Source of the DNA: Bacteriovoracaceae bacterium | Lineage (GTDB): Bacteria > Bdellovibrionota > Bacteriovoracia > Bacteriovoracales > Bacteriovoracaceae | Assembly: GCA_023137315.1 (NCBI GenBank) | Contig: JAGLPP010000012.1 | Location: 1-32,106 of the forward strand | Reading direction: 5' to 3' | Length of the DNA: 32,106 nt | Part shown: piece by piece, positions 13,022 through 31,250 of the stretch | Position numbering within the stretch: position 1 is the first letter of the stretch | Layout: each line of letters begins with the position of its first letter | Position numbers and translations under genes: made by a program | The notes under the pieces: generated by a model | Told to the model about the DNA's origin: nothing | Seen by the model: the letters and a program-made list of their open reading frames with translations, nothing else | Database searches by the model: none

Positions 13022-14977
13022 TTGGAACATATTGAAAGCACACTTGTTTTTCTACTTTGTTTTTTCTTCGTAGCACTGGCAGCAAAACAATTCGGACGCT
13101 ATTTTAAAATAATAAGACTGCCACTAATAACCGGTTTTTTATTCACTGGTATAATCGTCGGCCCATATTGCCTGAGTTTAATATCCATAGACGCTGTCAA
13201 TAATCTAAACTTTCTTGCCCAACTGTCTTTGGCATTTATCGCTTTTGCCGCAGGTGGAGAACTCAATTTCAGTGAACTAAAAAACCGGGTCAAAAGTATT
13301 AAATGGATCACCATGGGGTTGGTCTTTTGCACATTTTTTATCGGAAGTGCGGCCTTCTTCCTCCTGACTGATTTCATACCCTTTATGCAGTCAATGTCAG
13401 TCAACGCACGAATTGCTGTTTCAATTCTGGGAGGCTCTATTCTTGTGGCACGTTCTCCATCGTCTGCAATAGCCATCATAAAGGAATTGCGTGCAAGCGG
13501 CCCTTTTGTTCAAACTGCCATGGGAGTGACGGTTATCATGGATGTATTGGTGATTGTATTATTCTCCATCAATTCATCAATAAGCGATGTTCTTTTAACA
13601 GCAACCAGTTTCAACATATCATTTATATTTCTACTGGCCGTTGAAATCTTAATCATGTTTGCGCTTGGCTGTCTGATCGGAAAACTATTACAATTTATTA
13701 TTTCCAAACCACTGCACAAATGGATCAAAGGTGGAAGTATTTTACTTATTGGATACGGAATCTTTGTTTTTTCCGAAAAAATCCGCCACTACACCGCCAA
13801 TAATTTCAACGTCGAAATTTTTTTGGAACCACTTCTGATTTGCATGATCGGTGGATGTATAGTGTCAAATTATGGCCAACATCGTGATGAGTTTTTAAAT
13901 CTACTTCACGACATTGGGCCGACAATCTATCTTATCTTTTTTACTCTGACAGGTGCATCAATAAATCTGACCCTGATAGGAACACTATGGCCGGTTATAT
14001 TGCTACTATTTTTAATACGAATTGGAGCTGTCTTTGTCGGTTCCTTTTCAGGTGGAGTACTTGCCGGGGATTCAATGAAACATAATCTTGTTGGTTGGAT
14101 GTCCTACATAACTCAAGCCGGTGTGGGAATGGGACTGGCGAGAGAGGTTGCCGAGGAATTTCCAGAATGGGGTGGTGCCTTTGCCACTTTACTGATTTCA
14201 ATTATCGTAATTAATCAAATAGTTGGACCGGCTTTTTTCAAGTGGGTAATCTTTTTTGTAAAGGAGGCACATCCACGGGCCAAAAAGACAGAAAAGAACA
14301 TTATTCATAATGTGATCGTTTTTGGTGATGACGGACAGGCCGTGGCACTTGCCCGTCAATTACATTCACATCATTGGCAGACCAAAGTGGTATATTTTGA
14401 AAATGATGAGATGAAAGATATGATAGAGACACCAATTGAACTACACAAAATTTCAAGCATTACTCTTGATGAATTGCGTTCACTTGGAGTTGGTGGAGCG
14501 GGTGCAATCGTAACCATGCTGTCTGATGAAATCAACTATCAAATTTGCGAGCTGGTTAATAAAAATTTCAAAAACACAAATTTGATTGTCCGACTGAAAA
14601 AACGAATAAATCTTGAACGTTTTCAAGACCTGGATGCAATGATCGTGGCACAATCCACGGCCATGATAAGCCTGCTTGATCATTTTGTCAGATCACCATC
14701 CCTTGTCTCCATGCTATTGGATCTTGAAGAAGATCAAGACATCATTGATCTTAAAATTCGCAATCCATACGTCTCGGACAAGAGGTTGAGTGAACTGGAT
14801 ATTCCCCCAGGAATACTGATAATATCAACCCATCGTGCCGGAAAAATGTTGAATATTTTCGATAATTTTAAATTCAAAATGGGCGATAGATTGACCATTA
14901 TCGGACCTTCCGAAGAATTAACCAAGGCCGAATCATTTTTTACCACCAACCATTATGTACCAATGGTAATATACTAA
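13022..14977 (+). CDS. CPA2-family cation:proton antiporter with TrkA domains
   Basis: A 651-residue inner-membrane exchanger. Residues 1-415 hold about a dozen hydrophobic segments with family-like stretches (LPLITGFLFTGIIVGPYCLS, GGSILVARSPSSAIAIIKEL). The cytoplasmic part has a TrkA-N nucleotide-binding fold from about 428 (NVIVFGDDGQAVALARQL) and a TrkA-C domain at about 560-645 (DLKIRNPYVSDKRLSEL ... MGDRLTIIGP). This is the KefB/YbaL-like arrangement, expected to exchange K+ or Na+ for H+. The dinucleotide-binding glycine motif is GDDGQA rather than GxGxxG, so ligand preference may differ. The start is TTG at 13022 with AGGA 8 nt upstream; no ATG fits. Its stop abuts the stop of hydF on the other strand with no spacer. 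Confidence 0.92.
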   Translation: MEHIESTLVFLLCFFFVALAAKQFGRYFKIIRLPLITGFLFTGIIVGPYCLSLISIDAVNNLNFLAQLSLAFIAFAAGGELNFSELKNRVKSIKWITMGLVFCTFFIGSAAFFLLTDFIPFMQSMSVNARIAVSILGGSILVARSPSSAIAIIKELRASGPFVQTAMGVTVIMDVLVIVLFSINSSISDVLLTATSFNISFIFLLAVEILIMFALGCLIGKLLQFIISKPLHKWIKGGSILLIGYGIFVFSEKIRHYTANNFNVEIFLEPLLICMIGGCIVSNYGQHRDEFLNLLHDIGPTIYLIFFTLTGASINLTLIGTLWPVILLLFLIRIGAVFVGSFSGGVLAGDSMKHNLVGWMSYITQAGVGMGLAREVAEEFPEWGGAFATLLISIIVINQIVGPAFFKWVIFFVKEAHPRAKKTEKNIIHNVIVFGDDGQAVALARQLHSHHWQTKVVYFENDEMKDMIETPIELHKISSITLDELRSLGVGGAGAIVTMLSDEINYQICELVNKNFKNTNLIVRLKKRINLERFQDLDAMIVAQSTAMISLLDHFVRSPSLVSMLLDLEEDQDIIDLKIRNPYVSDKRLSELDIPPGILIISTHRAGKMLNIFDNFKFKMGDRLTIIGPSEELTKAESFFTTNHYVPMVIY

Positions 14978-16174
14978 CTAATGCCCAAAGACTGAAATTG
15001 CGCGGTCAAAAATCCCTAATGCGTAAGCTATCGCCATTCCGTAATTGGTTACAGGGATTTTCTTTTCTATTGCCGGAGCAACACGATTCAACAACTGCTT
15101 ACCTGTAAACATGCATCCCCCACACTGTATTACTAATTTATAATCACTGATTTCCCCTGGAATTTCATCAAAACCGGATACTGTTTCAAAATCAAGCTGC
15201 ATGCCTGTGTAGTTTCTAATCCAGCGGGGGATCTTCACCATGCCAATATCATCCTCGTTGACATGATGAGTGCATGACTCAAGAATTAATACCTTGTCCC
15301 CATTTTTTAAATTATCTATTTGTCTTGTTCCATGGATAAATGTTTCAAAATCCCCCTTAAACCTGGCAAAAAGAATACTAAAACTTGTTAAGGGAATATC
15401 CGCAGGAACTGCGGCAGATACTTTAAAAAATGCCTGACTGTCTGTTATCACCAAATCAGGATTGATTTTTTTTAAAACGAGATCAATTTCATGTTCCTTG
15501 GCAATTGTAATAATACAGTCATTATCCAACGCATCCCTGATTGCTTGCACCTGTGGAAGTATTAACCTCCCTTCAGGGGCCTCGGAATCAACTGGACAAA
15601 TCATCAAAACATGACTTCCACGTTGCACCAGATCTCCCATGATTGATTGCATGTTGAAACTTTTTTCAGGTAGATTTTCCTTGATTGCCCCAATAATATC
15701 CCTGCCCTTGTCTTTAGATGGCCACTTACAACTGAATGTTAAAATATCACAAAAATATTTATTTTTAATCTTTTCAAGTTTATCAGGCATTACCGGGAAA
15801 ATATCCACTTTGTTTCTGACCATGATCCAGGCAATCTTTTTTTTGGTAAATGTTTTTATTAATTCCAACTCATGCCTTCCCAAATCATCGGCTGCCATAA
15901 CCATTACAGCAAGATCAATCTTTTTAATCGCCTTTAACGTTGTCAGGACACGTTTATGGCCAAGTTCACCATCATCATCAATTCCGGCCGTATCCATAAA
16001 AACGACAGGCCCGATGTCATACAATTCAATACTTTTATAAACTACATCGGTGGTGGTTCCAGCATGCTCACTAACAATGGATATTTCCTGTCCCGTCAGC
16101 GAATTTATTACGGAACTTTTGCCAACATTTCTTTTTCCAAAAATACCAATATGTGGTTTCATGGAATTCAACAT
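14978..16174 (-). CDS. hydF: [FeFe]-hydrogenase maturation GTPase HydF
   Basis: A 398-residue scaffold on which the 2Fe subcluster of the H-cluster is assembled and from which it is passed to HydA. The GTPase domain has GKRNVGKS (13-20), DTAGIDD (60-66) and the NKxD motif at 120-123. The C-terminal Fe-S domain shows the HydF ligand pattern: Cys300-x-His302, then 47 residues, then Cys350-x2-Cys353 (CGGC). It is the last gene of the hydrogenase operon. The ATG at 16174 shares one base with the hydE stop and has AGGAGG 7 nt upstream; an in-frame TTG at 16195 inside hydE is rejected. It converges with the antiporter gene with no gap, leaving no room for a terminator between them. Confidence 0.96.
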   Translation of the reverse strand: MLNSMKPHIGIFGKRNVGKSSVINSLTGQEISIVSEHAGTTTDVVYKSIELYDIGPVVFMDTAGIDDDGELGHKRVLTTLKAIKKIDLAVMVMAADDLGRHELELIKTFTKKKIAWIMVRNKVDIFPVMPDKLEKIKNKYFCDILTFSCKWPSKDKGRDIIGAIKENLPEKSFNMQSIMGDLVQRGSHVLMICPVDSEAPEGRLILPQVQAIRDALDNDCIITIAKEHEIDLVLKKINPDLVITDSQAFFKVSAAVPADIPLTSFSILFARFKGDFETFIHGTRQIDNLKNGDKVLILESCTHHVNEDDIGMVKIPRWIRNYTGMQLDFETVSGFDEIPGEISDYKLVIQCGGCMFTGKQLLNRVAPAIEKKIPVTNYGMAIAYALGIFDRAISVFGH

Positions 16175-17217
16175 CACACCACCTCCTCTGTGCAATATAC
16201 AAAATTTTCATTAATTCTTTTTACATTTTTCTCCAAGGCATGCCTGTTTTCAGACACATTGTTTTCCAAGCAATCCTTCCTGTTATACAAGGAATACATT
16301 TCCTGATATTTCGCAGGTGTCTGGTTAAACATGACAACATTCGCACCGGAACAAATACCTTTAAAACGTCCGGTATCTGAAATCACATCCAAGGCCGTGG
16401 AGGCAGCGATATTGATTTTTGGCATCATTAACCTTAAAACTGCCAACACGTTCAAGGTCAATTCCAATCTTTCCGCTTTAGACAAAACACCATTTGCCCC
16501 GAAGATCGGGGTATCCTTATGCTCGACATAGGGACCAAGTCCAACCATGTAAACATTTAATTTTTTAAGTAATAACAAATCATCAGCTAAATCTTCAACC
16601 GTCTGGGAGGGGATTCCAACCATCATACCTGAACCAACCTGATAACCAATATCCTTTAAAAATTCGAGACATCTCATTCTTTGCCTGAAATCATGATTTA
16701 AATCGGCTGGATGTATTTTCCTGAACAGTTCAGGATTGCTGCTTTCAAATCTAAGTAAATATCTGTCAGCACCACTCTCTTTCCACAATTTGTAAGTTTC
16801 AAAACACTGCTCCCCACATGAAAGGGTAATCTTCACATCTTTGGAAAATTTTGTTTTTATTCTTTTCAAAATGAAGCTAATGTCATTAATAAATTTTCTT
16901 GTCTTGATCTCTCCTGATTGGATTACAAAAAACCTGTATCCTTGGTCAATTGATTTTTGGCAGGCATCCAACACAACATCAACAGGAAGATCATATCTTT
17001 CCACATTGCTGTTGCTGTGCCTTATTCCACAGTAATAGCAATCTTTATAACAATAATTGGAATATTCAATCAAGGCACGAAGATAAACCCCTTTTCCAAA
17101 CAGCTCTTGCTTCAACTTCAATGCACTCTCTCGAAATTCCAATGCCTGCTCACCGCGAAACATCAAATGTTTTACAATATTTTTTTTATTCCAATCAATC
17201 TTTTTTAGATATTTCAC
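16174..17217 (-). CDS. hydE: [FeFe]-hydrogenase maturation radical SAM enzyme HydE
   Basis: A 347-residue radical SAM enzyme that acts in building the dithiomethylamine-bridged 2Fe subcluster. The SAM-cluster cysteines are Cys56, Cys60 and Cys63 (CYKDCYYCGIRHSN), followed by the family stretches VIQSGE and MVGIPSQTVEDLADDL. The length is normal for HydE. The start is GTG at 17217, with a purine-rich AAGAGAAA just upstream and the hydG stop 10 bp before. It overlaps hydF by one base. Neighbours hydG and hydF complete the standard set of three maturases. Confidence 0.95.
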   Translation of the reverse strand: MKYLKKIDWNKKNIVKHLMFRGEQALEFRESALKLKQELFGKGVYLRALIEYSNYCYKDCYYCGIRHSNSNVERYDLPVDVVLDACQKSIDQGYRFFVIQSGEIKTRKFINDISFILKRIKTKFSKDVKITLSCGEQCFETYKLWKESGADRYLLRFESSNPELFRKIHPADLNHDFRQRMRCLEFLKDIGYQVGSGMMVGIPSQTVEDLADDLLLLKKLNVYMVGLGPYVEHKDTPIFGANGVLSKAERLELTLNVLAVLRLMMPKINIAASTALDVISDTGRFKGICSGANVVMFNQTPAKYQEMYSLYNRKDCLENNVSENRHALEKNVKRINENFVYCTEEVV

Positions 17218-17227
17218 AGTTTCTCTT

Positions 17228-18631
17228 TTAAAAAAAGATATCTCTTTTCCCGTCGCTGATCAAACTCAACTTATCCCTGACCTTGTCTTGAAGCTGTTCA
17301 TTTTGAATTTCCACTAACATTTTATCAATTAGTTCCCTGCCTTCTTTTTTCAAACTTCTGTCTCCAAAATCATGAATATATTCGGCAAATGTAAAGATAC
17401 CGTTGGGAATACAGTGTTCCTTTATAAGACCAGGTATTGCCAGATCCATAAAATCATTTCCAACTCTTCCCTTCCTGTAGCATCCCGTGCAAAAAGAGGG
17501 AATATAACCGCATTGAACAATGTCTTTTATGACTTCCGATGTTGATCTTGTGTCACCCAGCGAGAATTGTTCCAAATTATCTGCATTGTGTTTATCTCTC
17601 TCATTGTATCCACCTGGATTTGTTTTCGATCCTGCTGAAATTTGAGACACCCCCAATTCAAAGGCCTCTCGTCGAACTTTTTCATTTTCCCTGGTTGAAA
17701 GAATTATACCGGTATAAGGAATGGCAATTCTCAAGACGGATATTATCAGTTTAAAATCCTCATCGTTAACAACAAAAGGAGGATTTTTGCTGATCGGTGA
17801 ATTCAACGCTGGCTCAATCCTCGGTACGGAAATAGTGTGAGGGCCAACTCCAAATTGATGCTCCAGATGACGAATATGCTCCACCATTGCAAGTACCTCA
17901 TATTTCCAGTCGTAAAGTCCGAACAATACTCCAATACCTACATCATCAATCCCTGCCTTAAATGCGCGATCAATTGTTTCCAGTCTGAAATTATAATTAC
18001 TTTTAGGCCCTTTTAAATGAACCTTGCCATATGTTTCTTCGTGATACGTCTCCTGAAATATTTGATATGTACCAATTTTACAACGTTCCAATCTTTTGAA
18101 TTGCCACACACTCAATGGTGCAATATTTACATTTATTCTTCTAATATTTTGCGTCCCATCGCGTACACCATAAATGGTATCGATGGATTCCATGACAAAA
18201 TCCAAATCCCTGTCACTATGCGTTTCCCCTGCAACCAGCAATACTCTCTTATGCCCGTCTTTTAAGAGCATTTTTGTTTCTTCGATTATCTCTTCTTCAT
18301 CCAGCTTTTTACGTATTAACCCACCGTTTTGTGATCTATAAGCACAATAGGTGCATTCATTTTGACAATAATTTGAAACATAAAAAGGAGCAAATAAAAC
18401 CAGTCTTTTCCCATATATCTCCTGTTTCACGTATTTTGCCACCTTGAATATTTCATTTTTTATTTTTGAATCTTTAACGTTTAATAAATCAAATATCTCT
18501 CCACTATCGAGGCCTTTTAATTCCCGTCCTTTTCTTAAAATATCATAGGCCCTTCCGTCGTCTGGGATTTTTGCATCATTTAATAAACTGTGGATTTTTT
18601 TATCATCTATAAATTTATAATTATTCATCAT
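17228..18631 (-). CDS. hydG: [FeFe]-hydrogenase maturation radical SAM tyrosine lyase HydG
   Basis: A 467-residue enzyme that cleaves tyrosine to supply CO and cyanide for the H-cluster. The radical SAM cysteines are Cys89, Cys93 and Cys96 (CQNECTYCAYRS). The C-terminal auxiliary cluster motif CxxC-x22-C is complete (Cys381, Cys384, Cys407), which separates it from the related thiamine enzyme ThiH. The tandem ATG start overlaps the end of the upstream receiver-histidine kinase gene by 11 bp, so translation of this maturase is coupled to a signalling gene. AGAGG lies just before the start. Confidence 0.96.
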   Translation of the reverse strand: MMNNYKFIDDKKIHSLLNDAKIPDDGRAYDILRKGRELKGLDSGEIFDLLNVKDSKIKNEIFKVAKYVKQEIYGKRLVLFAPFYVSNYCQNECTYCAYRSQNGGLIRKKLDEEEIIEETKMLLKDGHKRVLLVAGETHSDRDLDFVMESIDTIYGVRDGTQNIRRINVNIAPLSVWQFKRLERCKIGTYQIFQETYHEETYGKVHLKGPKSNYNFRLETIDRAFKAGIDDVGIGVLFGLYDWKYEVLAMVEHIRHLEHQFGVGPHTISVPRIEPALNSPISKNPPFVVNDEDFKLIISVLRIAIPYTGIILSTRENEKVRREAFELGVSQISAGSKTNPGGYNERDKHNADNLEQFSLGDTRSTSEVIKDIVQCGYIPSFCTGCYRKGRVGNDFMDLAIPGLIKEHCIPNGIFTFAEYIHDFGDRSLKKEGRELIDKMLVEIQNEQLQDKVRDKLSLISDGKRDIFF

Positions 18632-19751
18632 TAAACCTCTTTAGTTTTATAGTAAATGTGGTTCCATTATCTTTTTCGCTATCAACTTTTACGTTGCCTT
18701 GGTAATTCGTTATTATCTTTTTCAATATTGAAAGCCCCAACCCACTTCCAGTAATATCCCTGGTCTTGGAATTTTTTACTCTGGAAAATTCCTGGAACAG
18801 CTTTTTCTGTTCCCCTTCTGTCATTCCAATGCCTGTGTCAACACACTTCATTACAAAGTGATACTCATCCCCATACACACTAAAATCAACTTTTCCACCG
18901 TCCTTGTTATATTTTACAGAGTTCGTCAGAAGATTATTAATTACCATTTGCAATTCATCCCTATCGGCCTTGATTTTAAAATTGCCGGGGCATGTAACAT
19001 TTAAATCAATATTTCTCTTCGTGGCATCCACTTGGACATTTTCAACACAATATTCAAGCAATTCATCAAAATTAAATTCCACCATTTCACGTCTTTTGTT
19101 ACCGGATTCAATCCTGGTTAAATCCAGCAAATCTGAAATCATCTTCCTCATACCATCCAGCCTGATAATTGATCGATCAATCATGCTTTGATAATTAGTC
19201 ATGTTTTCTCCGGCAGTTTTCTTTTGCATCAAAAACATATACCCCTCTATTGCAGATAAAGGCGCCTTCAATTCATGTCCCAACACCGAAATAAACTGAA
19301 ATCTTACTGCGTTTTTTTCTTTCTCTAATTTTTCCGCTTTCCTTTGAAGAAATATTCTTTCCGAGGCATTTTTAATTCTCGTTTTGAGGTCGTCAGGGGT
19401 GAAGGGTTTTGCCAAAAAATCAAAAGCTCCATTACGGGTGGCACTAATTGCAACTTCCAGGGATGCAAAAGCTGTAATCATAATTGTCAGGACATTTACA
19501 TTTTCTTTTTTTATAAAATCAAGTATTTCCAACCCTGTAATATCCGGAAGTTGGTGATCAAGTATCAAAATATCAGTTTCGCTTAATTGTAAAATATTGA
19601 GAGCATCATCACCATTATCCACCGTTTTAACACAATATCTGACACTCTCATTAAATTCATTAAAATCCACACTAAATGTTCGAAGGGCCCTTTCAATCCC
19701 GGACCTCATTCCAAATTCATCATCGACAACAAGAACATTCAATGTCTGCAC
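18621..19751 (-). CDS. Receiver-histidine kinase hybrid in the hydrogenase operon
   Basis: A 376-residue soluble protein. The N-terminal receiver (1-125) has Asp10-Asp11, phospho-acceptor Asp65 (LILDHQLPDITG) and Lys115 (FLAKPF). A short coiled coil (about 130-150) leads to the kinase: His159 in VLGHELKAPLSAIEGYMFLM, N box NLLTNSVKYN, G1 CVDTGIGM and G2 GSGLGLSIL. There is no membrane segment and no separate sensing domain, so its input is presumably phosphorylation of its own receiver, perhaps by the hydrogenase-like kinase two genes upstream. The start is GTG at 19751 with GGAG upstream; an overlapping ATG is out of frame. It lies 1 bp after the preceding receiver gene and overlaps hydG by 11 bp. 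Confidence 0.93.
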   Translation of the reverse strand: MQTLNVLVVDDEFGMRSGIERALRTFSVDFNEFNESVRYCVKTVDNGDDALNILQLSETDILILDHQLPDITGLEILDFIKKENVNVLTIMITAFASLEVAISATRNGAFDFLAKPFTPDDLKTRIKNASERIFLQRKAEKLEKEKNAVRFQFISVLGHELKAPLSAIEGYMFLMQKKTAGENMTNYQSMIDRSIIRLDGMRKMISDLLDLTRIESGNKRREMVEFNFDELLEYCVENVQVDATKRNIDLNVTCPGNFKIKADRDELQMVINNLLTNSVKYNKDGGKVDFSVYGDEYHFVMKCVDTGIGMTEGEQKKLFQEFSRVKNSKTRDITGSGLGLSILKKIITNYQGNVKVDSEKDNGTTFTIKLKRFNDE

Positions 19752-19752
19752 A

Positions 19753-20142
19753 TTAGTCTCCTATTAATTTATCAATCGCACCCTTAAGTTGTTCAAAACG
19801 TAAATCTTTTTGAATAAACTCATCAGCTTTAATCCAGGATCGCTCCTCTAAAGTCTTAATGCCAAAATGAATTCCTGTTTCTTTTGTAACTCCAGTGACA
19901 ATAATAACAGGCTTGCTATTATCAAGTTTTTTTATCTTGTGACTTAGCACAAAACCACTATCTTGATTTTCCATCATTAAATCAATTACTGCCAAATCAT
20001 AATTATTTTTATTTATATATTCAATGGCCTCACTTTCACCACCGGCTTCAAGAACTTCATAACCACTGGATTCAAGAAAAAATTTCATCTGTCCCCTTAA
20101 ATCCATATCATCATCCACCATAAGAATTGTTTTCTTTTTCAT
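19753..20142 (-). CDS. Single-domain response regulator
   Basis: A 129-residue stand-alone receiver. The acidic pocket (Asp10-Asp11-Asp12) and phospho-acceptor Asp54 (AVIDLMM) are present, Thr83 is in IIVTGVT, and the Lys position is Lys112 in FIQKDL, where the usual proline is Asp. About 20 extra residues (KETGIHFGIKTLEERSWIKA) separate the Thr strand from the Lys strand, compared with roughly 10-15 in an ordinary receiver. It overlaps the hydrogenase-like kinase gene by 32 bp and has AAGGAG before its ATG. By position it is the natural phosphate acceptor of that kinase. There is no output domain, so it must act by protein contact or phosphorelay. Confidence 0.92.
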   Translation of the reverse strand: MKKKTILMVDDDMDLRGQMKFFLESSGYEVLEAGGESEAIEYINKNNYDLAVIDLMMENQDSGFVLSHKIKKLDNSKPVIIVTGVTKETGIHFGIKTLEERSWIKADEFIQKDLRFEQLKGAIDKLIGD

Positions 20143-22183
20143 TACATCTCCTTAAATTGCTTTTACTTTCAATTAAAATATGTTTTTCATCTGAATGCTT
20201 CGGAATTGATATAATGAATTCTGTTCCAGTATCACCTTTACTGGAATCGTTATTTGAATTTACAGACACCATTCCCTTGTGCATTTTTACAATACCAAAA
20301 GACACTGCCAGACCAAGGCCAGTCCCCTTCCCCATTTGTTTAGTCGTATAAAATGGTTCAAATATCTTTTTTAGATTTTCCTTCGCAATTCCAGGGCCAT
20401 TATCAGCAACTTTTATATAACAAGATTCTTGATCTTGATCGACATCCACAGTAATTGTTCCACCACCAGGCATGATCTCAATAGCATTGGTCAAGAGATT
20501 GATTATTACCTGGGTAAGCTGGGTGGTATCAATTTCAGCGTTTATTATTTCGTTTTTAAAACTTTTAACTATTTTTATATTTCCCGGGATGATCATGGAT
20601 TGAATGTTGGTTTCAACCAGTTTAACCACATCGTTTTTCTCCAGAGTAACTTTATTTTTTCTGGCAAAATTTAAAAGTCCTCCCACTATTTTTTTACAGC
20701 GATCAGCTTGTCCCGCTATCATTCCAAGATCCTTGGCCATTTGAGAATTTTTATCACATCCATCCAAAAGAATATGGGCATACAGTAGAACAACCCCCAA
20801 CGGATTATTTACTTCATGGGCAATTCCTGCTGCCAGTTGCCCCATGCTGGCAAGCTTTTCATTTTGTACCAAGGCTTCCTTTGTATCCGCCAGCATTTCA
20901 TAAGACGTTGATAATTCTTTCGCCGTCATTTTCAATTTTTCTATAGTATAAGGAAGGCACATCTCAGACTCTGCCAAACCTCTATGAATGGCCACCGCAT
21001 GATTCAAACAACTTTCATATCCACATGCTCCACAATTAAGCTCATCCGTAAATTCGTATTTACCCATTGAATTGAGAATCTTTTTTACTTCATCCTTTGA
21101 GGGCATTGGAAGACGTTTATCATTGATTGTAAAACGAGTCTTTAAATCCAAATATTCAAAACGCCCAAGACTCTCTTCCCATTTTTTCTTGTTAACAGTA
21201 CTCATCCTTTTTCTGGCCCTTTTACTAATAAGTACCTGGCGTTCATGAATTGTTTTATCTGTTGTCATTCCCGGGCCCATGATACATCCTTCACAGCAAA
21301 GAGGATCCAGCAATTTGATGCCTTCCAAGTTACCATTTTCATATTCTCTCAGCGATTGTATACAATGCTTGTTCCCCTCCACCGATATGATATTGCTATA
21401 AACAAGATCATCCGAAATAGCCGCTGCCTGTAAAATACCCCTGCACATGGGAAAAATCGCACCTCTATATGATTCATATCCATCAAATTCCACCTCTTGA
21501 ATATTGGAAAGAACAATATCCACATGCTTAAACCATTTTCTAAGTTCTGAAAAAGTTAGTACCGCATCAATTTCTCTTTCAAGTTCAGGTCTTTCTGCTT
21601 CATGTTTTTTAGCAACACATGGGCCAATAAAGACAACTTTGGTCTTACGTCCATAATCCTGATGAATCACTCTTGCCAATGCCACCATTGGAGAAACAAT
21701 TGAAACGAGATATTTAACAAGAGCGGGATGATATTTTTCAACATACGAAACAACTGCAGGACATGGTGATGTAATAAAACGCTTGTCTGGATTGGCATCT
21801 AAAAGAGATTTGTATTGATTGGCCACTAAATCCGCACCAAATGAAACATCCATCACCTTGGAAAAACCAAGATTTTTTAAAGCACCAACAAACTGTTGTT
21901 CACTACACTCAGAAAACTCTGTAACAAAACTTGGAGCAACAATTGCCACAACCTCTTCATTGCGTTCAATAAGATTTTCAACTAATTGTTCTGAACTTCT
22001 AACTTCTTTGGCATTTTGGCTGCATACTATGACACAGTTACCACAAGCAATACAGCGATCCGGTAAAATTTCAGCCTGCCCGCCAACTATACGTATGGCC
22101 TTTGCCGGACATTCCCTAACGCAAGTATAACAAACACGACATTTTTCTTTAATTGTTTGAACAAGATGATTGCTTGACATCAT
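20111..22183 (-). CDS. [FeFe]-hydrogenase-like sensor histidine kinase
   Basis: A 690-residue soluble fusion. In order: two [4Fe-4S] ferredoxin clusters (Cys15/18/21/25 and Cys44/47/50/54); an H-cluster-type domain (about 75-310); a further 4Fe-4S domain with CGACGYESC (Cys384-390) and Cys408; a short coil; and an NtrB-like kinase with His456 (GIAHEVNNPLG), N box NLLTNAIE, G1 VADNGPGI and G2 GTGLGLAV. The four H-cluster ligands are retained: Cys141 (TSPCP), Cys189 (GPCVAKK), and Cys296 and Cys300 (CCEGC). The residue at the proton-transfer cysteine position is Pro140, as expected for a sensor rather than a fast catalyst. It probably reports H2 or redox state to the adjacent receivers. The start is the tandem ATG at 22183 behind AGGGG, 7 bp after hydA; an in-frame ATG at 22237 lies inside hydA and is not chosen. 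Confidence 0.9.
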   Translation of the reverse strand: MMSSNHLVQTIKEKCRVCYTCVRECPAKAIRIVGGQAEILPDRCIACGNCVIVCSQNAKEVRSSEQLVENLIERNEEVVAIVAPSFVTEFSECSEQQFVGALKNLGFSKVMDVSFGADLVANQYKSLLDANPDKRFITSPCPAVVSYVEKYHPALVKYLVSIVSPMVALARVIHQDYGRKTKVVFIGPCVAKKHEAERPELEREIDAVLTFSELRKWFKHVDIVLSNIQEVEFDGYESYRGAIFPMCRGILQAAAISDDLVYSNIISVEGNKHCIQSLREYENGNLEGIKLLDPLCCEGCIMGPGMTTDKTIHERQVLISKRARKRMSTVNKKKWEESLGRFEYLDLKTRFTINDKRLPMPSKDEVKKILNSMGKYEFTDELNCGACGYESCLNHAVAIHRGLAESEMCLPYTIEKLKMTAKELSTSYEMLADTKEALVQNEKLASMGQLAAGIAHEVNNPLGVVLLYAHILLDGCDKNSQMAKDLGMIAGQADRCKKIVGGLLNFARKNKVTLEKNDVVKLVETNIQSMIIPGNIKIVKSFKNEIINAEIDTTQLTQVIINLLTNAIEIMPGGGTITVDVDQDQESCYIKVADNGPGIAKENLKKIFEPFYTTKQMGKGTGLGLAVSFGIVKMHKGMVSVNSNNDSSKGDTGTEFIISIPKHSDEKHILIESKSNLRRCNEKENNSYGG

Positions 22184-22190
22184 TAACCCC

Positions 22191-23915
22191 TTAGAGCAAG
22201 ACATCCCTTTTTTTGTAATGCGTATGTAATAACTCATGGCTCAGTTCACCAAGAGGCTCTCCTAAAAATTCTTCATACAACTCTTTAACTGCACCATTTT
22301 CATGTGATTTTCTTAAATGCCCGGTACTATCAATATTATAAAGAGCATTCATTCTTGCCCTTATAGTTTCCTTATCAGCTCTAATTGGCTGCCCCCCTCC
22401 ATTAATGCAACCTCCGGGACATGTCATTACCTCAATAAAATGTATATCGTCCCTGCCTGCTTTTATCTCTTCCAGTAACTGTCTGGCATTTCCCAATCCG
22501 CTGACAACAGCAATACCAAGCTCCAAATCACCAATTTTGACATTGGCCTTTTTAACCTCTTTTAATCCCCTGACTGGCTCCAGCTTAAGATTTTCGGTCT
22601 CCTTGCCTGTAACAAGATAATGAGCTGACCTGAATGCCGCTTCCATCACTCCACCGGTAACTCCAAAAAGTTTTCCTGCAGTACTTCTCGTTCCAAAGGG
22701 AAGATCAGCTTCTTCCGGATCAAGTTCAGGAAGTTTAATACTGTAGGATTTGATCAATTGGGCCAATTCTCTTGTCGTTAAAACAGCATCTATGTCAGGG
22801 GTCCCATCCTTTTCAACCATTTCAGGCCGACCAGCTTCAAATTTCTTGGCAGTACACGGCATGATGGCAACACTGTAAATATCTTCAGGATTTATATTAT
22901 TTTTTTCGGCATAGTAACTTTTAATAATGGCACCAAGCATCTGTTGCGGTGATTTACATGTAGAAAGATTTTCTACATATTCAGGATATGTTTGTTCGAC
23001 AAATTTAACCCACCCTGGGGAACAACTTGTAAACATTGGCAATTTCCCACCTGTCTTTATTCTTTGTACCAGTTCACTTCCTTCTTCAATGATGGTTAGA
23101 TCCGCAGAAAATGATGAATCAAATACACGTTTAAATCCCATCATTCTAAGAGCAGTTGTCATTTTACCAGCGACATCAGTACCGGCCTTCATTCCAAATT
23201 CCTCTGCAATGGTAACTGAAATACTTGGGGCATGCTGAATAACAACATGTTTTTTCGGATTGGATAAGGCATCTACAACTTGAGGGATATGACTTTGTTC
23301 TCTTAACGCACCTGTTGGACAAACCAAAATACACTGTCCACAACTAATACAACTGGACACATTTAAACCTTCATTAAAGGTACATCCAACAATAGTATTA
23401 CTTCCCCTTCCTATAAATTCAAGTGCTGATACTGATTGCACCTCTTCACAAACCCGTACACATTTTCCACATAAAATGCATTTATCCGGATCACGTATAA
23501 GTCCAAGAGATGAAACATCCAGCGGATATCCCCTCTCCTTGCCAGGATAACTTTTTTCTGTGATTCCATATTCCCTGGCCAGATCATTAAGATCACATGA
23601 ATGTGATCTTTCGCAGTAAAGACAATCATCGGGGTGATTCGAAAGCAACAATTCAACAATTGTCTTTCTGGCCTGTATTACTCTTCCAGAATGTGTTTTA
23701 ATTTTCATTCCATCACTGACTGGATAAGAACAACTCGGAACCAATCCTGAAATTCCCTCCACCTCAACCACACATAAACGACATGCTCCGGTAGGAGTAA
23801 GTTCTTTCATATGACAAAGAGTTGGTACACTAATTCCAATCTCATTTATCACTTCAAGAATAGTACCACCCTCTTCAACGTCATGGCCTTTTCCATTAAT
23901 CTCGACATTGATCAT
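22191..23915 (-). CDS. hydA: NAD-linked [FeFe]-hydrogenase catalytic subunit
   Basis: A 574-residue enzyme interconverting H+ and H2. In order: [2Fe-2S] domain (Cys34, 45, 48, 62); His94-Cys98-Cys101-Cys107 cluster; two [4Fe-4S] clusters (Cys146/149/152/156 and Cys189/192/195/199); the H-cluster domain; and a C-terminal small-subunit-like tail (about 515-574). The H-cluster motifs are FTSCSPGW (298-299 = Cys-Ser), IMPCTAKK (Cys354) and TCPGGCINGGG (Cys499, Cys503). Motif 1 reads TSCSP, not the classic TSCCP. With HydB and HydC it forms the trimeric NADH-linked, possibly electron-bifurcating, type. AAGGAG lies 6 nt before the ATG, and hydB ends 17 bp upstream. Confidence 0.96.
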   Translation of the reverse strand: MINVEINGKGHDVEEGGTILEVINEIGISVPTLCHMKELTPTGACRLCVVEVEGISGLVPSCSYPVSDGMKIKTHSGRVIQARKTIVELLLSNHPDDCLYCERSHSCDLNDLAREYGITEKSYPGKERGYPLDVSSLGLIRDPDKCILCGKCVRVCEEVQSVSALEFIGRGSNTIVGCTFNEGLNVSSCISCGQCILVCPTGALREQSHIPQVVDALSNPKKHVVIQHAPSISVTIAEEFGMKAGTDVAGKMTTALRMMGFKRVFDSSFSADLTIIEEGSELVQRIKTGGKLPMFTSCSPGWVKFVEQTYPEYVENLSTCKSPQQMLGAIIKSYYAEKNNINPEDIYSVAIMPCTAKKFEAGRPEMVEKDGTPDIDAVLTTRELAQLIKSYSIKLPELDPEEADLPFGTRSTAGKLFGVTGGVMEAAFRSAHYLVTGKETENLKLEPVRGLKEVKKANVKIGDLELGIAVVSGLGNARQLLEEIKAGRDDIHFIEVMTCPGGCINGGGQPIRADKETIRARMNALYNIDSTGHLRKSHENGAVKELYEEFLGEPLGELSHELLHTHYKKRDVLL

Positions 23916-23932: not shown

Positions 23933-25906
23933 TTACTCTCTTATCACAGCATCCAGACGACAAGCTTGAAAGCAGGCACCACAAGCAATGCATTTTGATT
24001 GTTCAATTGTATGGATACCATTTTTGTCACCCCAAATGGCGCCAACAGGACATTTTTTTGCACACAAAGTACATCCAACACATTTATCCACATCAATGGT
24101 ATATGTAAGTAATTCCTTGCAAACCCTGGCACGACATTTTCTCTCATAAATATGTTCTTCATATTCATTTCGAAACCACTTAAGCGTACTTAATACCGGA
24201 TTGGGAGCAGTTTGCCCCAACCCACACAAGCTTGTATCTTTTATAACATTGGCAAGTCTCTCCAAATGCATAATTCCCTTAAAACGCTTTAATGCATCGT
24301 TATCCTTCTCAGTCGAACGCCCCCGTGTAATAGTATTTAAAATTTCCAACATACTTCGAGTTCCTTCACGGCATGGGATACATTTACCGCAACTCTCTCT
24401 TTGAATAAAATCCATAAAAAATTTTGCAACATCAACCATACATGTTTCGTTATCCATGACAACAAGACCACCTGAACCAACCATGGCACCAATTTCCTTT
24501 AATGATTCATAGTCAACAGAAACATCCAGATTTTCCGCAGGAATGCAACCTCCTGATGGCCCTCCCATTTGAACTGCCTTGAATTCATTATCATTTTCGA
24601 TACCACCACCAATTTTATAAATAATATCCCTCAGTGAAGTCCCCATGGGAATTTCAACAAGACCGGATCTTTTAATTTTTCCTGAGATAGAAAAGACCTT
24701 TGTTCCCTTACTGTCTCCCACACCCATTGATGAAAACCAATCTGCGCCCCTGGAGACAATTAGTGGAACATTTGCAAGAGTTTCAACATTATTGATAACT
24801 GTAGGTTTACCAAAAAGCCCACTGGTGGTTGGATATGGTGGCCGTGGTCTAGGCATTCCACGCTTCCCTTCAATACTATGTATGAGAGCAGTTTCCTCGC
24901 CACAAACAAATGCACCCGCACCCATTTTTATAACAATATCAAGATTGACCCCGCTTCCATAAATATCTTCACCAATAATACCGCATTCCATGGCATCATT
25001 TATCGCCTTTTTCAGATTTTTTATGGCAAGTGGGTATTCCGCTCTTATATAGATATATGCTTTTGAAGCACCAATGCCATATGCTGCAATTGCAAGACCT
25101 TCAATTAATTTATGTGGATCCCCTTCAATAATGGCACGATCCATAAATGCTCCGGGATCACCTTCATCCGCATTACAAATAACATATTTTTGATCGGAAT
25201 CTGTACCAAGGGCCAACTTCCACTTGCGCCCGGTTGGAAATCCACCACCTCCGCGACCTCGAAGTCCCGAACTCTCTACATAATCACAAAGATCGTTTGG
25301 AGTAATCGTATGAATTGTTTTCAAAAGAGCACTATAACCACCATGTGCAATATATTCATTAATATCGACAGGATTAATAACTCCACAATTTTCTAAAACA
25401 CATTTAACCTGTAATTTAAAAAACGGATGATCATTTATATATGGAAGATTATCCCAATTTTCCAGACCTTCTTGATGATACTGTCCTAAAAGGTCATTCA
25501 CCGGAACTGATTCTGCAAAAATATTATCTAAAAGTTCTTTTACCTTGTCTTCAGTTATTTTTTGAAAGGAAAGTCTGTTTTTGCCGGGAAGTTGAATATC
25601 AAACAAAGGTTCCAACGAACAAATCCCAACGCAACCGACTTCAATGACTTCAATATCCAATTTTTTTTCTTTAATATATTTTTTTACTTCAGGAATTGTT
25701 TTATCCGCACCTGAAGCAAAACCACATGTTCCTGCACCAATATAAACAACCGCCCTTTCAACCTTTTCCCTTCGAAGAAGGCAAAGCTTTTTTTCAAGAT
25801 CATCAGTCTGAAACCTTGATCTCATGGAATTATAAAAGCGATCTTTTACATCTTTTGGAATCACATCAAAATTTTCTTTTATCCAAACGGAACTCCAGTA
25901 TGTCAT
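23933..25906 (-). CDS. hydB: NADH-binding flavoprotein subunit of [FeFe]-hydrogenase (NuoF-like)
   Basis: A 657-residue subunit that carries FMN and NADH and passes electrons to HydA. An N-terminal thioredoxin-like ferredoxin domain (50-130) has Cys61, Cys92 and Cys96, but the fourth expected cysteine is missing (Ile56 in YIGAGTC). The NuoF core follows: GLRGRGGGGFPTG (214-226), NADEGDPGAF (245-254), GAGAFVCGEETAL (329-341), then an SLBB-like segment and the 4Fe-4S site CGKCIPC (506-512) with Cys561. The C-terminus is a two-cluster ferredoxin (Cys609/612/615/619 and Cys639/642/645/649). This composition matches HydB of trimeric hydrogenases. The ATG overlaps the hydC stop as ATGA. Confidence 0.96.
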   Translation of the reverse strand: MTYWSSVWIKENFDVIPKDVKDRFYNSMRSRFQTDDLEKKLCLLRREKVERAVVYIGAGTCGFASGADKTIPEVKKYIKEKKLDIEVIEVGCVGICSLEPLFDIQLPGKNRLSFQKITEDKVKELLDNIFAESVPVNDLLGQYHQEGLENWDNLPYINDHPFFKLQVKCVLENCGVINPVDINEYIAHGGYSALLKTIHTITPNDLCDYVESSGLRGRGGGGFPTGRKWKLALGTDSDQKYVICNADEGDPGAFMDRAIIEGDPHKLIEGLAIAAYGIGASKAYIYIRAEYPLAIKNLKKAINDAMECGIIGEDIYGSGVNLDIVIKMGAGAFVCGEETALIHSIEGKRGMPRPRPPYPTTSGLFGKPTVINNVETLANVPLIVSRGADWFSSMGVGDSKGTKVFSISGKIKRSGLVEIPMGTSLRDIIYKIGGGIENDNEFKAVQMGGPSGGCIPAENLDVSVDYESLKEIGAMVGSGGLVVMDNETCMVDVAKFFMDFIQRESCGKCIPCREGTRSMLEILNTITRGRSTEKDNDALKRFKGIMHLERLANVIKDTSLCGLGQTAPNPVLSTLKWFRNEYEEHIYERKCRARVCKELLTYTIDVDKCVGCTLCAKKCPVGAIWGDKNGIHTIEQSKCIACGACFQACRLDAVIRE

Positions 25907-26388
25907 ACCGACTCCTCTGAACGATAACGTCTAATGATCTTGTTAATCTTTTGCTGATCAACATTGCCATAAAACTCACCATTAACACTTACAACGGGGG
26001 CCAAACCACATGCTCCTATACACGCAACAACTTCTATACTAAAGACTCCATCTTTCGTGGTATCGCCTGCCTTTATTGCAAGGGACTCTTCTAAAATTTC
26101 CAAAACAGGCTGAGACCCTTTAACGTGACATGCAGTTCCTCTACAAATCATGATGTGATATTTTCCAAATGGTTTAAATCTAAATTGATTATAAAAAGTT
26201 GCAACACCATATATTTTACTTGTAGGTAAATTTAGATGTCTGCCAATTTGTACAACTGCTCCTTTTGAGAGATACCCCTCCTCATTTTGTACTTCCTGCA
26301 ATATCGGAATAAGCTGCTCACGACCAACTTTTTGATATTTATTCAGTACTTCTGTCACCTTTTCGCTTTTTTCAAATAATGCCGGCAT
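25903..26388 (-). CDS. hydC: [2Fe-2S] thioredoxin-like hydrogenase subunit (NuoE-like)
   Basis: A 161-residue electron-transfer subunit. The helical N-terminus (LIPILQEVQNEEGYLSKGAV) and IYGVATFYNQFRF are typical of NuoE. The [2Fe-2S] ligands are Cys82-x4-Cys87 (CRGTAC) and Cys123-x3-Cys127 (CIGAC), all present. It docks to HydB near the flavin. The ATG follows the rex stop with no intervening base, and GGAGGGG lies in the last codons of rex. It overlaps hydB by 4 bp. Confidence 0.96.
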   Translation of the reverse strand: MPALFEKSEKVTEVLNKYQKVGREQLIPILQEVQNEEGYLSKGAVVQIGRHLNLPTSKIYGVATFYNQFRFKPFGKYHIMICRGTACHVKGSQPVLEILEESLAIKAGDTTKDGVFSIEVVACIGACGLAPVVSVNGEFYGNVDQQKINKIIRRYRSEESV

Positions 26389-27045
26389 TTAAAATTTCCC
26401 CTCCGTTAAAGAAGATTCTTCTTCAACACTCAATTCTGCAAAATATGCAGTTTTTTCAATTGCCGTGGTTATATCAATATTTTCTATAAAAACCTTTTCA
26501 CTGATATGAATCTTGGTCGGAGCAAAATTTACAATCCCTCTAACGCCGGCCCTTACCATGCTTTCAGCAATATCCTGTGCATCAGAGGCAGGAACAGTTA
26601 AAATTCCAACGGAAATTTCATTTTTTTTAATAATCTCCCCGATTTTTGAAATGTGATAGCATTTGCATCCTGACAAAACGCGATCCACCTTTGCTTCATC
26701 ATCATCAAAAGCTGCTATAATCTCAATGTTTGGTCTTCTCTTGATAAAGTAAGATAAAATCGCTCTCCCCAGATTTCCCACACCTACCAACGCAGCATAT
26801 TTTTTTTTCACTGAACGAACGATTTTATTAATTTCGTCCAACATCTCCTCCACTCGATAACCTCTTTGAGGTATTCCCTTGATGGAAAGAGGCATAAGGT
26901 CTCTCCTGACACGAGCAGGAGAGGCCTTGATTGCAGAGGCTAATTCATGTGAAAAAACATATTCCCTTCCCTGATTCCTGACACTCATCAAGATCTGTCT
27001 GTAGATACACATTCTTTCAATTGCTTTTTCACTTATCTGTGTAAT
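26389..27045 (-). CDS. rex: Redox-sensing transcriptional repressor Rex
   Basis: A 218-residue repressor if started at ATT 27045. Residues 1-85 form the winged helix (SHELASAIKASPARVRRDLMPLSIKG then QRGYRVEEMLDEI). The Rossmann domain begins ALVGVGNLGRAILSYF and continues with AFDDDEAKVDR. Rex family proteins release DNA when NADH is high. The first ATG (27012) has no good Shine-Dalgarno and would cut off the conserved N-terminal helix. In frame upstream lies TQISEKAIERM, which matches the usual Rex start, and a perfect AGGAGG stands 5 nt before an ATT codon. I therefore infer an ATT start. It is the second gene of the operon and probably controls the operon through the palindromes near 27.55 kb. 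Confidence 0.9.
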   Translation of the reverse strand: MTQISEKAIERMCIYRQILMSVRNQGREYVFSHELASAIKASPARVRRDLMPLSIKGIPQRGYRVEEMLDEINKIVRSVKKKYAALVGVGNLGRAILSYFIKRRPNIEIIAAFDDDEAKVDRVLSGCKCYHISKIGEIIKKNEISVGILTVPASDAQDIAESMVRAGVRGIVNFAPTKIHISEKVFIENIDITTAIEKTAYFAELSVEEESSLTEGKF

Positions 27046-27056
27046 AACCGCCTCCT
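27043..27056 (-). promoter_or_regulatory. Shine-Dalgarno AGGAGG and ATT start of rex
   Basis: AGGAGG (27056-27051), a 5-nt spacer CGGTT and ATT (27045-27043). No ATG, GTG or TTG is in frame between this site and the internal ATG at 27012. Confidence 0.6.
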
Positions 27057-27066
27057 TTCTATTTTT

Positions 27067-27477
27067 TTAGCCACCAACATTTATTTTTTCTGAAGGTAAG
27101 GCCAATAGTTTATTGGTTAATTCAATCAACTTATCCGGAGTAATTGGCTTCTCAATAAACTCATCCACTGGTAGATACTCTCCACCTTTGTCTTTACTAA
27201 AACCAAGTCCGGTTACTTGATTAATTGAAGTTAACATTAAAATGGGTTTATATTTCAAAGCTTGATTTTTTCTAAATTTGTAAGTGGTATGAAAGCCATC
27301 AGTTGTATCATCCATCATTACATCAATTAAAATCATGTCCGGTCCAAAATCCTTTGCCTTCAAATATCCATCTTGACCCCCTGTTGCAATCTCAACGATA
27401 TGGCCCTCCGCTTCAAGAGTTACCTTACATGTTTCCAAAATGTCCCTGTCATCATCAATACAGATTATTTTCGCCAT
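27067..27477 (-). CDS. Single-domain response regulator, first gene of the hydrogenase operon
   Basis: A 136-residue stand-alone receiver with Asp8-Asp9-Asp10, phospho-acceptor Asp52 (ILIDVMMDD), Thr83 (MLTSIN) and Lys110 (FIEKP). It shares with the receiver at 19753 an enlarged segment before the Lys strand (NQVTGLGFSKDKGGEYLPVDEFI) and the DEFI-x-K ending, so the two are probably related and may serve the same kinase. GGAG lies 6 nt before the ATG. The gene sits 21 bp upstream of the proposed rex start and is the promoter-proximal gene. There is no output domain. Confidence 0.92.
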   Translation of the reverse strand: MAKIICIDDDRDILETCKVTLEAEGHIVEIATGGQDGYLKAKDFGPDMILIDVMMDDTTDGFHTTYKFRKNQALKYKPILMLTSINQVTGLGFSKDKGGEYLPVDEFIEKPITPDKLIELTNKLLALPSEKINVGG

Positions 27478-27488
27478 AATTTCTCCTT

Positions 27489-27504
27489 CGTTACACTTGT
27501 ATCA
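27489..27504. promoter_or_regulatory. Degenerate third copy of the hydrogenase-operon operator
   Basis: CGTTACACTTGTATCA keeps the left half-site and spacer of the palindrome at 27585 (CGTTACCCTT), but the right half is imperfect. It lies just upstream of the first gene of the operon. Confidence 0.3.
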
Positions 27505-27536
27505 AATTAAATACAAGCCAAGTTCTATTCGTTACT

Positions 27537-27562
27537 CTAATTGTTACATTGGTAACAATTAG
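27537..27562. promoter_or_regulatory. 26-bp palindrome, likely Rex operator
   Basis: Perfect 11-bp arms CTAATTGTTAC and GTAACAATTAG flank ATTG. The core TTGTTAC-N4-GTAACAA closely resembles known Rex sites of the form TTGTTAA-N4-TTAACAA. It lies between the operon promoter and its first gene. A hairpin in the leader RNA is an alternative reading. Confidence 0.65.
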
Positions 27563-27584
27563 AGACACCCACTTCCCTAACCAT

Positions 27585-27600
27585 CGTTACCCTTGTAACG
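27585..27600. promoter_or_regulatory. Second GTTAC-N4-GTAAC palindrome at the transcript start
   Basis: CGTTACCCTTGTAACG has 6-bp arms and the same 4-bp spacing as the palindrome at 27537. It begins roughly 3 bp downstream of the predicted transcript start, where a bound repressor would block initiation. Confidence 0.6.
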
Positions 27601-27609
27601 TTCAAATTA

Positions 27610-27685: not shown

Positions 27686-28093
27686 TTATTTCTTCTTTTC
27701 TTTTTTTAAATAAAATGAAGGTTTTATATTTTCTACGGCCTCAATAACAGAAGAATAAAAAACAATCTTGTCTTCGGTCAACAAATCCATGATTTTTAAA
27801 AATTTTATCTGCCCGGGTGTTGACTTGTTTTTTTTACGAATCATACACCTGATTTCAACCAGCTTTGAGATAAGCTGTTGCGAATCCATGCCATAAACAA
27901 AACAAATCAATTTTATCCACGCATCAAGGCCACCTTTTCCCCTATATAACATAAGATCAAGTGCCCCCTCTGAAATTCCTGTCTCCCGGGATGCATCCCG
28001 CTTTTTAACTATAGTGTTCAAGTAAGGGTAGACAGTACGCCTCAAAAAATCCCTGAATTGCCCGGGATTTTTACTGCAATCAATATCATTCAT
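27686..28093 (-). CDS. Small basic protein with helix-turn-helix-like segment
   Basis: A 135-residue protein (143 if a GTG at 28117 is used; neither start has a Shine-Dalgarno, and ATG is preferred). The segment ASRETGISEGALDLMLYRGKGGLDAWIKLICFVYGM looks like a Cro/CI-type helix-turn-helix followed by a scaffold helix, and the C-terminus is Lys-rich. I do not recognise the family. It diverges from the unknown gene at 28218, and two operator-like palindromes in the spacer are candidate binding sites for it. It reads in the same direction as the hydrogenase operon but is separated from it by that operon's own promoter. Confidence 0.7.
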   Translation of the reverse strand: MNDIDCSKNPGQFRDFLRRTVYPYLNTIVKKRDASRETGISEGALDLMLYRGKGGLDAWIKLICFVYGMDSQQLISKLVEIRCMIRKKNKSTPGQIKFLKIMDLLTEDKIVFYSSVIEAVENIKPSFYLKKEKKK

Positions 28094-28151
28094 ACCGCTG
28101 ATTCTAATGTATTCCACTATAAAAGTCTAAAAGCAATTGAATTCCAAGTTT

Positions 28152-30269: not shown

Positions 30270-31250
30270 CTACCAATTAAGAACATAGGCAAAAACAAGT
30301 GGTGCCACAATAGTGGCATCCGATTCAATAACAAATCTTGGCGTATCAATATCCAGCTTACCCCACGTAATCTTTTCATTTGGAACAGCGCCGGAATATG
30401 AACCATAGCTAGTAGTGGAATCACTTATCTGGCAAAAATATCCCCATAGAGGAGTTTCAATTTTCATATCCTGTTCCAAAAGAGGGACAACGCAAATTGG
30501 AAAATCACCAGCAATTCCTCCACCTATCTGAAAAAATCCAATCGAACAATTCGCCGATATTTCCCGATACCATCCGACAAGTCTTGTCATAAGCTCGATT
30601 CCATTCTCCACAACATGAGAACTTTTAATCGGGCCCGTCATAACATCTGCCGCAAATTTGTTTCCAAGTGTCGAGTCTTCCCAACCGGGTGTAAAAATTG
30701 GAATATTCCTTTCCCAGGCGGCGTACAGCCAACTGTCTTTCTTATCAATTTGAAAGTACTGGTCAAGCACCTTCTTTTCAAAAAGTTTCCAAAGATAAAA
30801 ATGCGGAGGATGGGTCTCTCCCATTCTATCAGCTTCCCTCCACTCCTCGAGAACAAACGCCTCAATTCTTCTCATGGCCTCTTCTTCGGGGATACAGGTA
30901 TCGGTCACCCTGTTAAGGCCTTTTTTACAAAGCTCCATCTCCATCTCAGGAGAGAGATCGCGATAATTTGGAACCCTTTCATAATAATCATGGGCCACCA
31001 GATTAAAAACATCCTCTTCGAGATTGGCACCTGTACAACAAATCCCATGCACCTTTTCCTGTCTTATCATCTCGGCTAAAGACACCCCCAGTTCCGCCGT
31101 ACTCATGGCACCTGCCAGGGTGATAAACATTTTTCCACCATTTTTCAGATGATTTTCGTAGGCGGAGGCGGCATCAACCAAACCGGCCGCATTGAAATGG
31201 CGAAAGTGGTGTTTAATGAAATTTCTAACTGGGGTTTTCAGGTCAGACAT
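30270..31250 (-). CDS. Deoxyhypusine-synthase-family enzyme
   Basis: A 326-residue homologue of eukaryotic/archaeal deoxyhypusine synthase. It shows GGKMFITLAGAMSTAELG (substrate/NAD region), GGGIAGDF and the C-terminal SYSGAVPNEKITWGKLD, where Lys298 matches the catalytic lysine of the family. Bacteria have no eIF5A, so the natural role is not hypusine formation. Bacterial members have been linked to polyamine transfer such as homospermidine synthesis; that is family knowledge and untested here. AGGAG stands 5 nt before the ATG. It is monocistronic as far as seen, 125 bp from the kinase downstream and divergent from a membrane-protein gene. Confidence 0.9.
   Translation of the reverse strand: MSDLKTPVRNFIKHHFRHFNAAGLVDAASAYENHLKNGGKMFITLAGAMSTAELGVSLAEMIRQEKVHGICCTGANLEEDVFNLVAHDYYERVPNYRDLSPEMEMELCKKGLNRVTDTCIPEEEAMRRIEAFVLEEWREADRMGETHPPHFYLWKLFEKKVLDQYFQIDKKDSWLYAAWERNIPIFTPGWEDSTLGNKFAADVMTGPIKSSHVVENGIELMTRLVGWYREISANCSIGFFQIGGGIAGDFPICVVPLLEQDMKIETPLWGYFCQISDSTTSYGSYSGAVPNEKITWGKLDIDTPRFVIESDATIVAPLVFAYVLNW

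Follow-up and report, generated by a model that had tools for sequence, protein, structure and literature searches.

Results

Gene organization of the hydrogenase locus

The window analysed here, a stretch of 32,106 nucleotides from a Bacteriovoracaceae bacterium (contig JAGLPP010000012.1), carries a run of minus-strand genes in the order RR0, Rex, HydC, HydB, HydA, SHK, RR1, RR-HK, HydG, HydE and HydF. The run extends from 27477 to 14978 (12.5 kb), and its genes overlap or are separated by short gaps, a layout from which an operon is predicted. The features are as follows.

27488..27601, no strand: three tandem palindromes of Rex geometry upstream of RR0 (27488-27505, 27541-27558 and 27584-27601)
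27067..27477, minus strand: RR0, single-domain receiver with a conserved INV(D)G tail, first gene of the run (Pfam, orthologues)
26389..27012, minus strand: Rex redox (NADH/NAD+) repressor (NF003995, 178.9 bits, cut-off 126)
25903..26388, minus strand: HydC, NuoE-like (profile matches)
23933..25906, minus strand: HydB, NuoF-like (profile matches)
22191..23915, minus strand: HydA, NADH-dependent [FeFe]-hydrogenase, group A6 model (NF040763, 839 bits, cut-off 765)
20111..22183, minus strand: SHK, putative sensory [FeFe]-hydrogenase/histidine kinase fusion of 690 aa (domains, motifs, orthologues)
19753..20142, minus strand: RR1, single-domain receiver, 32-bp overlap with the end of the kinase gene (Pfam, orthologues)
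18621..19751, minus strand: RR-HK, receiver-HisKA-HATPase hybrid (Pfam, orthologues)
17228..18631, minus strand: HydG maturase (TIGR03955, 504.5 bits)
16174..17217, minus strand: HydE maturase (TIGR03956, 337.4 bits)
14978..16195, minus strand: HydF maturase (TIGR03918, 488.9 bits)

The original prediction had placed a sensor, its likely receivers, the catalytic enzyme and the maturases in one operon, and this arrangement of the genes was borne out. Its description of the locus as a complete H2-responsive unit was not supported as stated. Pfam searches of the receivers and the hybrid kinase found no DNA-binding domain in RR0, RR1 or RR-HK, and Rex, the only DNA-binding regulator identified in the run, had been left unlisted.

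The L1 motif of HydA, TSCSPGW, has a serine at the position of the CpI ligand C300. An inactive HydA was considered and rejected, because the solved HydA1 of entry 7q4v, which we take to be the A. woodii protein, carries the same motif.

Two genes of the window outside the run were also recorded. A deoxyhypusine-synthase-like gene (30270-31250; PF01916, 2e-41) represents an archaeal/eukaryotic-type family in a bacterium. The gene of a B12-binding radical SAM protein (11206-12909) adjoins that of a Na+/H+ antiporter (13022-14977), whose product contains TrkA domains and which is convergent with hydF. The assembly contains no 16S gene.

Domain structure of SHK

The plus strand at 20111-22183 is full of stop codons, and the SHK reading frame lies on the minus strand. 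Two ATG codons were compared as translational starts. The ATG at 22183 has AAGGGG just upstream and follows the HydA stop codon by 7 bp, whereas the alternative at 22237 (708 aa) has no Shine-Dalgarno sequence and overlaps HydA; 22183 is therefore the better start. The orthologues described below begin at the matching position, so that the gene boundaries originally proposed can be kept. Pfam searches gave matches far beyond chance to Fer4_10, Fe_hyd_lg_C (8.6e-55), FeS (PF04060), HisKA (1.4e-12) and HATPase_c (9.2e-27), which resolve the protein into these parts:

22022..22141, minus strand: two CxxCxxCxxxC ferredoxin cluster motifs, Cys 15, 18, 21, 25 and Cys 44, 47, 50, 54 (motifs, Pfam Fer4_10)
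21272..21955, minus strand: H-cluster-type domain (H-domain; PF02906) with L1 TSPCP (C141), L2 GPCVAKK (C189) and L3 LCCEGC (C296/C297, C300)
20957..21034, minus strand: C-terminal 4Fe-4S motif Cx2Cx4Cx16C, Cys 384, 387, 392 and 409 (PF04060)
20657..20845, minus strand: HisKA domain with the phospho-acceptor His456 at 20818-20816 (Pfam)
20198..20530, minus strand: HATPase_c domain with N, G1, F and G2 boxes (Pfam, orthologues)

The kinase is complete, as all boxes are present: HEVNNPLG (H), NLLTNAIE (N), DNGPGIA (G1), FEPFYTTK (F) and GTGLGLAV (G2). Thus, the two ferredoxin clusters, the additional 4Fe-4S domain and the entire histidine kinase with His456 that had been read from this frame were all confirmed. 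SHK and the adjoining hydA are the only two PF02906 genes in the genome of the window. Structure prediction of SHK, for which only proteins of the window were aligned, reached a pLDDT of 35.8 and a pTM of 0.22, and a scan of genome contigs returned a single hit, an unrelated kinase in a Chryseobacterium MAG.

Conservation of SHK and its neighbours

We surveyed 369 genomes of the phylum. Six of them, including the window's own, encode the full hydrogenase-kinase; the other five proteins share 47-54% identity with SHK and have the same domain order. The gene lies directly downstream of hydA in all six. No PAS domain was matched by Pfam in any of the six proteins, while the same kind of search does find PAS in locus L076 and in genome G011, which is why SHK was not classed with the PAS-type HydS proteins. 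In G011, a seventh genome of the set, a HydS of that type is encoded, with a SpoIIE phosphatase gene after it.

The Cx2Cx4Cx16C spacing is exact in 6/6 SHK proteins, and in each of them 47 residues separate the last cluster cysteine from the phospho-histidine. Such constancy would be expected if the linker were a helix that relays a signal through its register. In the close pair G074 and G067, dN was 0.08-0.15 in every SHK domain; purifying selection thus acts on the H-domain as it does on the kinase. Because dS was saturated between these closest orthologues, we do not report dN/dS. In a midpoint-rooted tree of H-domains, which does not fix the branching order of SHK and HydS, the six SHK proteins formed a single clade (98/94) that lies outside the one uniting the catalytic A+B sequences (99/97).

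The gene set SHK-RR1-RR-HK-RR0 recurs in the relatives as far as the contigs extend. Two further genomes, G024 and G130 (loci L074 and L081), have hydrogenase operons with RR0 and RR-HK and without SHK or RR1. This distribution suggests the pairings SHK-RR1 and RR-HK-RR0.

Active site of the H-domain

The active-site residues of SHK were read by alignment against CpI. All five proton-transfer residues of group A are lost: E279 falls into a gap, while E282, R286, C299 and S319 are replaced by Gln, Leu, Pro and Val, respectively. Met353 is replaced by Gly, and M497 by Leu or Pro depending on the alignment of L3. Pocket residues for the diiron ligands and cyanides, namely APS and the lysine of PCxAKK, are retained. 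Loss of these proton-transfer residues together with a Cx2Cx4Cx16C motif is listed by Land et al. for the M2e/M2f (group C/D) sensors (PMC8163306), and a proline at C299 occurs in approximately 10% of the sensory sequences in HydDB (PMC10055695). Judged from the alignment, the active-site pattern of SHK is that of sensory [FeFe]-hydrogenases.

The two ferredoxin clusters leading to the H-domain would also suit a protein that serves HydABC as an accessory subunit, donating electrons or acting catalytically, and that works mainly in H2 turnover despite having acquired a kinase. Such a role is very improbable, given the replacement of C299 and of all other group-A proton-transfer residues and the presence of a full kinase followed by cognate receivers.

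For the sensory kinase that these replacements favour, the L3 motif is the abnormal element. LCCEGC lacks one residue relative to the canonical MxCxxGC and to L3 of every HydS and HydA aligned, and the motif reads L[CS]C[EN]GC across the SHK orthologues. C296 gives the usual C-x3-C spacing, C297 a C-x2-C spacing, and the sequence leaves the L3 ligand of the cubane ambiguous between them. Of the four H-cluster ligands originally assigned (141, 189, 296 and 300), all are cysteines and 141, 189 and 300 are clear. C296 is only one of two options, because C297 is invariant in the six SHK proteins and C296 is a serine in one orthologue (G017).

The shortened L3 and the missing proton path would fit a different kind of sensor, in which the H-domain lacks the diiron site and the Fe-S clusters, all of whose motifs are intact, report ferredoxin reduction or, as an O2 sensor, cluster damage. 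We consider this explanation unlikely. The L1 and L2 cysteines, the last L3 cysteine, APS and PCxAKK are invariant across the six orthologues, and the SHK gene always adjoins hydA. The maturase genes do not bear on the matter; the presence of HydEFG is no evidence for an H-cluster in SHK, since HydA needs these proteins anyway.

Comparison with known sensory hydrogenases

Over the sensor part, the best named relatives of SHK are the HydS proteins of R. albus 7 (36.7%), Acetoanaerobium and Monoglobus. The R. albus protein (WP_013483411.1, pRUMAL01) is the closest named relative with genetic context. A PAS domain is clear in the Acetoanaerobium protein and weakly matched in that of Monoglobus; no PAS family scored in Pfam for R. 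albus HydS, yet an extra C-terminal region is present. SpoIIE phosphatase genes follow the R. albus and Monoglobus HydS genes.

A comparison with HydS-type proteins had been proposed as a check of the original prediction. Like HydS of R. albus 7 and T. maritima (group C, M2f), SHK combines two ferredoxin clusters, an altered H-domain and a Cx2Cx4Cx16C motif ending in MCLPY. The exchange of Met353 for Gly has been reported for TmHydS as well. Moreover, HydS shares with SHK its location in an operon with a hydrogenase, and the R. albus operon also contains Rex. In contrast to HydS, SHK is directly fused to a histidine kinase and has no PAS domain, whereas in R. albus the SpoIIE phosphatase gene comes after hydS; the L1 of SHK reads TSPCP/TTCP and its L3 is one residue shorter.

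SHK resembles TamHydS (group D, M2e) in the lack of PAS, the same C-terminal cluster, the loss of C299 and, if aligned at C297, a leucine at Met497. It falls outside group D, as its kinase is fused (TamHydS has none) and Met353 is replaced by Gly, not by Ser as in TamHydS. Two N-terminal 4Fe-4S clusters with PF02906, the Cx2Cx4Cx16C motif and the replacement of C299, the proton path, Met353 and Met497 are features that it shares with group C. HydDB describes group C1 as 'histidine kinase-linked (putative)', with predicted H2 sensing via a histidine kinase (PMC5037454); the best-matching C1 entry lacks a HATPase domain (PMC11406978).

A close parallel in architecture and neighbourhood is BfuT. 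Group C3 H-domain-histidine kinase fusions of this name are encoded beside BfuABC in Hydrogenedentota, Calditrichota and Bacteroidota (PMC11406978), that is, next to a bifurcating-type hydrogenase and in some cases downstream of its A subunit. Since such fusions have already been described, an SHK-type fusion is not new, and the near-uniqueness initially attributed to it had to be abandoned in view of these published parallels (PMC11406978, PMC5037454). Unlike at the SHK locus, neither a response regulator relay nor Rex is mentioned in the main text of PMC11406978, as searched by term. The regulatory [NiFe]-hydrogenase system HoxBC/HoxJ likewise has an H2-binding hydrogenase module controlling a histidine kinase (PMC5707799), but the hydrogenase is unrelated, the modules are separate polypeptides and the kinase contains PAS.

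Rex, RR0 and the palindromes upstream of the operon

The palindrome at 27541-27558 is a perfect 18-bp TTGTTACN4GTAACAA, whose score was reached by none of 1000 shuffles; the other two are imperfect versions of it. The 3.15-Mb genome contains no other GTTACN4GTAAC. The half-site TTGTTAC differs from the usual Rex half-site TTGTGAA. Boxes of the TTGTGAA type are found upstream of rex or of the operon in G019, G067 and G358, where 0-4 of 1000 shuffles reach them, and a weaker Rex-type palindrome is present in G074 (38/1000). The recognition helix of the window's Rex reads SPARVRRDL where its relatives have AQVRRDL; this replacement of Gln by Arg could explain the changed half-site.

Rex relatives start approximately 11 residues earlier (corresponding to 26389-27059 of the window). 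The only in-frame candidate upstream that stands behind a strong Shine-Dalgarno sequence (AAAGGAGG) is an ATT codon, which points either to initiation at AUU, a rare start codon, or to a mistake in the assembly. Upstream of RR0, a 143-aa frame (27686-28117) contains an HTH-like stretch (RETGISEGALDLMLYRGKGG...) without a Pfam match and could encode another regulator of the operon.

RR0 orthologues (E < 1e-25) were detected in 7 of the 369 genomes, in six cases within [FeFe]-hydrogenase operons. RR0 adjoins Rex in three genomes (the window's own, G019 and G017). In the seventh, G358, which has no [FeFe]-hydrogenase, the Rex frame runs straight into RR0 to give a single frame of 361 aa (L091, 10209-11294). 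The RR0 part has a Shine-Dalgarno sequence of its own; therefore, the fusion and a free RR0 could both be made. The fusion is preceded by a Rex box (13 of 14), and the same contig carries genes of the complex-I/[NiFe]-type 49/30 kDa, antiporter and molybdopterin types. Among plasmids no Rex-RR0 fusion was found and no record covers 80% of it, and our literature search found no title linking Rex with receivers and hydrogenases.

An output through protein activity has to be weighed against one through transcription. RR0 might dock on HydABC or another enzyme and change its activity rather than its expression, a relay that concerns the output only and is compatible with H2 sensing. The lack of a DNA-binding domain in RR0 would agree with this, as would its conserved tail and its conservation, which matches that of HydA and HydB (70% identity to the G019 orthologue vs 64-67%). 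Furthermore, RR0 stays with the hydrogenase in G024 and G130, in whose genomes no Rex was detectable although RR0 and RR-HK are kept. Rex therefore cannot be the only target of RR0, which must have some Rex-independent role. Against a purely post-translational relay stand the adjacency of RR0 to Rex in three genomes and their fusion in G358, which lacks [FeFe]-hydrogenase, and on balance we regard it as rather less probable than its opposite.

Discussion

The architecture of SHK, the loss of its proton path, its C-terminal cluster and kinase boxes, its recurrence in six genomes and its linkage to HydA fit the original assignment as a sensory [FeFe]-hydrogenase kinase; the L3 motif is abnormal. 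We consider it reasonably probable that SHK is a cytoplasmic histidine kinase responding to H2 or redox state, and H2 fits best as the signal. A sensory function of [FeFe]-hydrogenases is still described as putative (PMC8924675), because the known examples signal via PAS domains and via phosphatases with unknown targets; that an [FeFe] protein senses H2 directly is likewise regarded as putative in every case (PMC8924675). Genetic support for regulation by PAS-type relatives comes from hfsB deletions, which raise adhE expression and ethanol yield (PMC5707799).

From the features of the locus we infer an H-cluster in SHK, H2 as its signal and a series of phosphotransfer steps. The H-domain probably carries an H-cluster matured by the HydEFG proteins of the operon and would bind H2 or equilibrate with the ferredoxin pool; its turnover would be slow because the normal proton path is missing. 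A change of state would then pass from the H-domain through the Cx2Cx4Cx16C domain and the fixed-length helix to the HisKA dimer and alter phosphorylation of His456. Work on TamHydS, a group D model, argues that H2 does not reduce its C-terminal cluster (PMC13104023). By analogy, the route through this cluster in SHK may be structural rather than electronic, the signal passing as a conformational change. The phosphate would be transferred to RR1, to the receiver of RR-HK or to both, and the kinase of RR-HK itself would then act on RR0. The output would adjust the expression or activity of hydABC and the maturases.

The most economical DNA-binding output would be Rex, which presumably already sits on its own upstream operators, with RR0 as the link. 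RR0 and Rex are adjacent or fused, and the operon is preceded by Rex-type palindromes, so that Rex may be the point at which the H2 signal arrives, although two genomes have RR0 but no Rex. That RR0 acts on Rex, taken as a single step, is a tentative proposal which we hold at somewhat below even confidence. More speculative still, and on the doubtful side, is the combined model in which Rex is a repressor with two inputs, H2 and NADH, whose grip on the hydrogenase promoter would change when it is bound by RR0, the phosphorylation of RR0 being set by SHK and RR-HK, and in which the sensor clade may hold an H-cluster with a shortened C-x2-C L3.

SHK is thus a well-supported variant within a known but still unproven class of hydrogenase-kinase fusions, and we tentatively regard the surrounding relay and the connection to Rex as the new leads. 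With hydrogenase and kinase in one polypeptide and receivers encoded next to it, a direct assay can ask whether H2 changes autophosphorylation. Should the link between Rex and RR0 prove real, it would reveal how H2 pressure and NADH state are integrated by anaerobes when they set the amount of hydrogenase.
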